NCBI GenBank assembly: GCA_029266335.1
Contig: JAQSXC010000109.1
Span: forward strand, 1-36,115
Length of the DNA stretch: 36,115 nt
Direction: 5' to 3'
From: Eubacterium sp.
GTDB taxonomy: Bacteria; Bacillota; Clostridia; Acetivibrionales; DSM-1351
Shown: in pieces, positions 14,487 to 14,716 of the stretch
Position numbering within the stretch: the first letter of the stretch is position 1
Layout: every line of letters begins with the position of its first letter
The notes under the pieces: model-generated
Told to the model about the DNA's origin: nothing
The model's database searches: none
What the model saw: only the letters and a program-made list of their open reading frames with translations
Program-made: the position numbers and the translations under genes

Positions 14487-14716
14487 TTAATTTCTTTCCT
14501 CAACCAGCTCAAAACTCCCCTTTGCAGCTCCTTTTCCTGTGAGCTCCAAACTTCTCCTGTCAGGTTGGTTTCCCGATATGTAAACCTTGAACAAACCATC
14601 TATCAGAGCCATTTGCCCTGATGGAATTATAAAGGAAACTTCAGTAGTTTCATAAATGTGGCACCAAGCTTCCCGGTCAGATAGGGATCCTCGCCGAAGG
14701 TTTCCTGGCCCCGTCA
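14487..14716 (-). pseudogene. Remnant of a GH3 beta-xylosidase/beta-glucosidase gene
   Basis: Two pieces of a family 3 glycoside hydrolase are joined in different frames. Read on the minus strand from 14713 to about 14640 one frame encodes RGQETFGEDPYLTGKLGA, the unmistakable GH3 N-terminal barrel motif. From about 14646 the neighbouring frame encodes TEVSFIIP...FKVYISGNQPDRRSLELTG...GSFELVEE, ending at 14487, which matches the C-terminal fibronectin III-like domain of GH3 xylosidases. A working enzyme has about 700 residues, so roughly 600 codons between these parts are gone, including the nucleophile. There is no usable start. It lies 38 bases after the GH67 stop, so the operon once carried a beta-xylosidase gene here. 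Confidence 0.85.

Follow-up and report, generated by a model that had tools for sequence, protein, structure and literature searches.

A GH67 alpha-glucuronidase gene in Eubacterium sp. (assembly GCA_029266335.1) is followed by an interval, at 14754-14487 on the minus strand, that separates it from a 663-codon frame and holds no intact gene. What once stood there? We address this question in a 36,115-nt stretch, contig JAQSXC010000109.1 from position 1, which we refer to as a whole as the window. A first-pass annotation had interpreted the interval as the scar of a GH3 gene. We estimate a probability of about 90% that it is a dead remnant of a GH3 gene, which the common ancestor shared with R. 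hungatei and R. cellobioparum carried behind GH67. The relevant features are as follows.

16870..21367, minus strand: upstream part of the glucuronoxylan/glucuronate operon, comprising UxuA, a mannitol-dehydrogenase-type oxidoreductase (UxuB-like) and a SASA-domain esterase (domain searches)
14755..16842, minus strand: intact GH67 gene for an alpha-glucuronidase of 695 aa, an enzyme that removes glucuronic acid from plant xylan (GH67 N, M and C domains in Pfam)
14714..14754, minus strand: 41-nt stretch from the GH67 stop to remnant 1, where the first 129 GH3 codons lie in relatives (alignment against shuffles)
14648..14713, minus strand: GH3 remnant 1, about 22 codons around RGQETFGEDPYLTG, codons ~130-151, RGQETFGEDPYLTGKLGATFMK (DNA alignment, residue identity, protein search)
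14648..14651, minus strand: junction of a 1519-nt deletion (two local alignments share 4 nt)
14487..14651, minus strand: GH3 remnant 2, the C-terminal end from about codon 657 to the stop, 54 codons plus stop (protein search, DNA alignment)
12438..14429, minus strand: next gene downstream, 657 codons from ATG 14411 (663 from TTG 14429), not part of the scar

The name "glucuronoxylan operon" given to the locus earlier is a fair one, judging from gene families. The GH67 protein is 78% identical to that of R. cellobioparum. The best NCBIfam match of the oxidoreductase upstream of GH67 is fructuronate reductase, at 166 bits, below the cut-off of 603. The SASA-domain esterase carries an inserted sugar-binding-like domain, in a domain order similar to that given for XuaJ of R. 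cellulolyticum (PMC11127375). Downstream of the 663-codon gene are an AraC-type regulator on the plus strand, two permeases and a solute-binding protein. No terminator-like site was found in 14380-14900, around the scar that the 663-codon gene follows, and promoter-like sites near the scar were not in excess (2, compared to 1.0 with an sd of 1.0 in shuffles).

The N-terminal barrel domain of GH3 enzymes carries a conserved RG.ETFGEDP stretch. Translation of 14400-14800 on the minus strand gave RGQETFGEDPYLTGKLGATFMKLL in one frame and FIIPSGQMALIDGLFKVYISGNQPDRRSLELTGKGAAKGSFELVEERN* in another, the second ending in SFELVEERN with its stop codon at 14489-14487. When the R. cellobioparum GH3 protein was searched against the whole Eubacterium sp. 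genome, both pieces were matched on one strand and in the order of the gene: the N piece at 14585-14716 (E 2.9e-4) and the C piece at 14493-14651 (E 2.2e-11). The C piece aligned to residues 662-723 of the 728-residue query (P0001) with 72% identity, and thus includes the C-terminal Fn3-like end that the first-pass annotation had recognised in a frame other than that of the motif. At the DNA level, identity to the R. cellobioparum locus L021 was 48/66 nt for the N piece, in which 16 of 22 residues are identical, and 42/54 and 63/88 nt for the C piece. The N piece aligned to R. hungatei DNA at E 0.05, short of the threshold, and at E 0.002 with looser scoring; neither piece was found with Pseudobacteroides DNA. 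The GH3 assignment rests on these close relatives, because Pfam matches remnant 1 weakly (PF00933, E 0.025, 14.4 bits against a cut-off of 27, with only 22 codons left) and the C piece with no family at E up to 1. A Pfam scan misses the scar for this reason, as no piece reached the Pfam cut-off. These comparisons confirm, at the level of sequence, that the GH3 observation is real and not a product of chance.

The remnant is smaller, and its history less simple, than first proposed. With the 723-codon GH3 gene of L021 as the full-length reference, remnant 1 corresponds to codons 130-151 and not to the start, so the pieces are not the two joined ends of the gene that the first-pass annotation had described. 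The gap between them is about 506 codons (1519 nt), the same against L021 and the second R. cellobioparum locus, L022, rather than the roughly 600 codons claimed. A further 27 nt are missing from the C piece at about 14597/14598, compared to L021, L022 and also R. hungatei; against R. hungatei, the middle of the scar aligned less cleanly, in several jumps. In total, about 640 of 723 codons have been lost, in addition to a frame change between the pieces, and complete GH3 catalytic domains are absent, as codons 1-129 and about 152-657 are gone. In the 41 nt that follow the GH67 stop, nothing detectable remains of codons 1-129: when this stretch was aligned locally to five relatives, the scores did not exceed those of shuffled sequence (1000 shuffles per relative; fractions reaching the observed score 0.70, 0.81, 0.10, 0.88 and 0.31). 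Short pieces of 5' GH3 sequence that a jump-alignment drew into these 41 nt were attributed to chance on the basis of the same shuffle test. The scar includes the large internal deletion that had been proposed, with 1519 nt gone, but at least three gaps (the 5' part, 1519 nt and 27 nt) are present instead of one clean deletion. The 4-nt overlap at the 1519-nt junction fits a deletion between short direct repeats, which is only suggestive. The 27-nt gap does not shift the frame, and it may be older than the loss of the gene.

Intact GH3 genes are found at the same place in related genomes. We examined the best 80 of 130 GH67 loci, together with a set of 11 genomes of the genus, one per species. 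Among the best 80 of 130, five loci have a complete GH3 gene immediately behind GH67, with both genes on one strand: L021 and L022 of R. cellobioparum (L022 from subsp. termitidis), L023 of R. hungatei, L025 of Pseudobacteroides cellulosolvens and L097 of a Halanaerobiales MAG. This agrees with the earlier claim that the scar reveals a former content of the operon. Counted from the first ATG, these operon GH3 genes have 723 codons in R. cellobioparum (L021 9112-11280), 723 in R. hungatei and 721 in Pseudobacteroides. They occupy the same position behind GH67 as the scar, and theirs are full length whereas that of the window is a remnant. Counting GH3 matches that span at least 100 residues, 15 of the best 80 of 130 loci have one, five downstream of GH67, seven just upstream (L099 being cut by a contig end) and three farther away.

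All 11 genomes of the genus have GH67. Beside it, GH3 is intact in three (G001, G004 and G010, which appear from their identity and coordinates to be the records of L021, L023 and L022), reduced to the scar in one, the genome studied here, and without a match in seven. No convincing GH3 remnant was found behind GH67 in those seven genomes, where the best match, in the 2.8-kb spacer of G009, had E 0.48; for three of them the search covered plain 300-nt slices, and L017 gave no AraC match in the 1.5 kb of flank covered. A tree of UxuA and GH67 with 13 rows groups the window with R. hungatei and R. cellobioparum (100/99). Because every member of this group other than the Eubacterium sp. genome has GH3 behind GH67, loss on its own branch is the simple reading. 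The same grouping with GH3-bearing species indicates that this loss was separate from that of R. papyrosolvens. Gene order is GH67, GH3, AraC and permeases in a row in Pseudobacteroides; GH67, scar, 663-codon gene, AraC and permeases in the window; and GH67, AraC and permeases in R. papyrosolvens. In R. cellobioparum, GH3 is followed by another AraC gene and a GH2 gene, and the R. hungatei contig stops 1.5 kb behind GH3. The scar fits with GH67-GH3 being an older gene order among these clostridia.

A separate observation concerns the block at 6158-14429 of the window (the 663-codon gene, AraC, two permeases and the solute-binding protein), which is missing from the interval that separates GH3 from the following AraC gene in R. 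cellobioparum (L021 11280-11668). R. papyrosolvens has its AraC, permease and solute-binding part, and Pseudobacteroides its AraC-permease part.

Residue comparison of the 70 surviving residues with 23 GH3 sequences points to the gene of the closest kin. The two R. cellobioparum operon proteins share 50 and 49 identities with the scar and that of R. hungatei shares 42, in agreement with the origin proposed from position. The operon proteins of the Halanaerobiales MAG (39) and Pseudobacteroides (36) are not distinct from other groups, whose 18 sequences have 38 or fewer of the 70 residues identical to the scar, and in a GH3 tree the genes of these two organisms were not joined with support to the Ruminiclostridium operon genes. 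The closest other GH3 genes of the Eubacterium sp. genome, on contigs C32 (38 identities) and C353 (29), belong to two other groups of the tree with orthologues in relatives. The C32 group contains genes of G001, G003, G004, G009 and G010 with a similar AraC gene nearby, and the C353 group is found in other genomes of the genus. Further GH3 matches in the genome are at most 37% identical to the operon gene. Thus, no moved copy of the operon GH3 was found in this draft (92.6% complete), only members of other groups. The lost enzyme would have been a beta-xylosidase, an inference from its family and operon context only.

The surviving codons suggest that the loss was recent. We compared 67 of the 76 codons; the nine left out were not plainly aligned, which biases the sample toward conservation. 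Differences at codon positions 1, 2 and 3 were 11, 7 and 35 against L021, 12, 6 and 34 against L022, and 18, 14 and 44 against R. hungatei, where the third-position share is lower (44/76). The intact pair L021 and L023 differ at 16, 12 and 42 positions over the same 67 codons. Against L021, the third-position share of the scar (35/53) is like that of GH67 (352/540; Fisher p 1.0) and of the intact L021-L023 pair (p 0.57), and far from one third (p 1.2e-6). In this small sample of 67 codons, the remnant still appears to carry the mark of purifying selection, and selection probably acted on the gene through most of the period after the split. This mark is why the loss seems recent when set against the divergence from R. 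cellobioparum.

Several other explanations were weighed. It is unlikely that the organism has an intact GH3 gene from which the assembler lost segments. The assembly is a draft (356 contigs, 5.06% contamination), and the C32 GH3 gene of this genome also lacks about 56 codons in the C-terminal part, in frame; but the gaps in the scar are separate and at different places, the flanking genes are full-length open frames, and a search with the scar DNA gave no other match in its own genome at E up to 0.001, so that no evident repeat would have led to assembly collapse. A deletion at the level of the strain is possible, as the collection has one genome per species. That the C piece is a short functional gene, making a small protein from its open frame of 108 codons (14813-14490), seems very improbable. 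The frame has no stop between 14816 and 14489, candidate starts exist before the C piece (GTG 14717) and inside it (ATG 14612, TTG 14594 and 14549), and substitutions fall mainly at third positions. A recent loss predicts this third-position excess equally well, however, and the short sequence has not been kept as a distinct gene: all nine other C-piece matches in the 11 genomes of the genus sit in frames of 679-738 codons. We give equally little credence to the idea that the operon of this lineage never had this GH3 and that the pieces are left over from another GH3 gene, transposed or paralogous. The seven of 11 genomes without a GH3 match beside GH67 could be taken in its favour, as could the Pseudobacteroides (36) and Halanaerobiales (39) proteins, which over the 70 residues match the scar no better, or scarcely better, than does the paralogue on C32. 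Yet those seven genomes are not the closest kin in the tree, and position, order, strand and best match all point to the operon gene of the species that are.

Decay of the operon GH3 gene in place is thus the reading we prefer. The stretch can no longer encode a GH3 protein, because compared to relatives it lacks about the first 129 codons, 1519 nt from the middle and 27 nt close to the end, and the scar bears the marks of a pseudogene in its frame change, its loss of codons and the complete counterpart that relatives have at this position. Most likely, an inactivating deletion occurred when the cell had no more need of this GH3 copy, its activity putatively being supplied by other enzymes of GH3, GH39 or GH43. 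Such redundancy is possible because the genome has one GH39 match and 12 GH43 matches. Further deletions probably preceded or followed the inactivating one. In bacterial pseudogenes and gene remnants (PMC2916853, PMC522871), a once functional gene is inactivated and shortened beside intact neighbours; the scar is the same sort of thing, a minor leftover of a 723-codon gene whose relatives are intact at this position. Among the titles listed in a literature search, none concerned this GH3 loss, which does not show it to be unpublished. The scar is genuine, ordinary gene decay, and the first-pass annotation was correct in essence. It adds a further clear instance of a sugar-utilisation operon that recently lost a gene, and it leaves the general picture as it was.

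The 663-codon gene, which belongs to a family of unknown proteins, is the part most worth a specialist's time. Its product matched nothing in Pfam, NCBIfam or the PDB sequences. A structural model (mean pLDDT 68, with 189 of 657 residues under 50) shows, at moderate confidence, a beta-sandwich followed by a helical barrel, an arrangement also seen in several sugar-active enzymes. The best PDB match of the model is the polysaccharide lyase 5no8 (TM 0.45, 10% identity), followed at lower TM by GH116 and GH94 enzymes, and a sugar-active fold, though not a function, is suggested by this prediction. The closest relative, at 75% identity, is encoded behind the solute-binding protein of the GH67 cluster in G003, and a Clostridiaceae MAG (L042, apparently the same as G258) has the first 102 residues, at 64% identity, directly behind GH67 at a contig end. 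No GH3 was seen beside GH67 in either genome. More distant relatives, about 30% identical along most of the protein, occur in six of 391 genomes, four of them with an AraC-type gene within the stretch covered; G075 matches over the last ~390 residues only. One could speculate that this protein belongs to an undescribed family of carbohydrate-active enzymes and has replaced the lost GH3 at its place in the operon, perhaps also in its work, though we consider this doubtful. A plainer possibility is that it is one more enzyme of this pathway.

Two minor observations remain. The shortened GH3 gene on C32 (L143, 1078-3114, minus strand), whose neighbours we take to be araA, a GntR-type regulator, araB and araD, lacks its ~56 codons relative to orthologues; the gap may reflect true variation, the decay of a further gene or an error of assembly. 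In the window, a cyanophycin synthetase-type gene with Pfam Cyanophycin_syn, Mur ligase and ATP-grasp domains lies near the sugar operon, at 28736-31501 on the minus strand.
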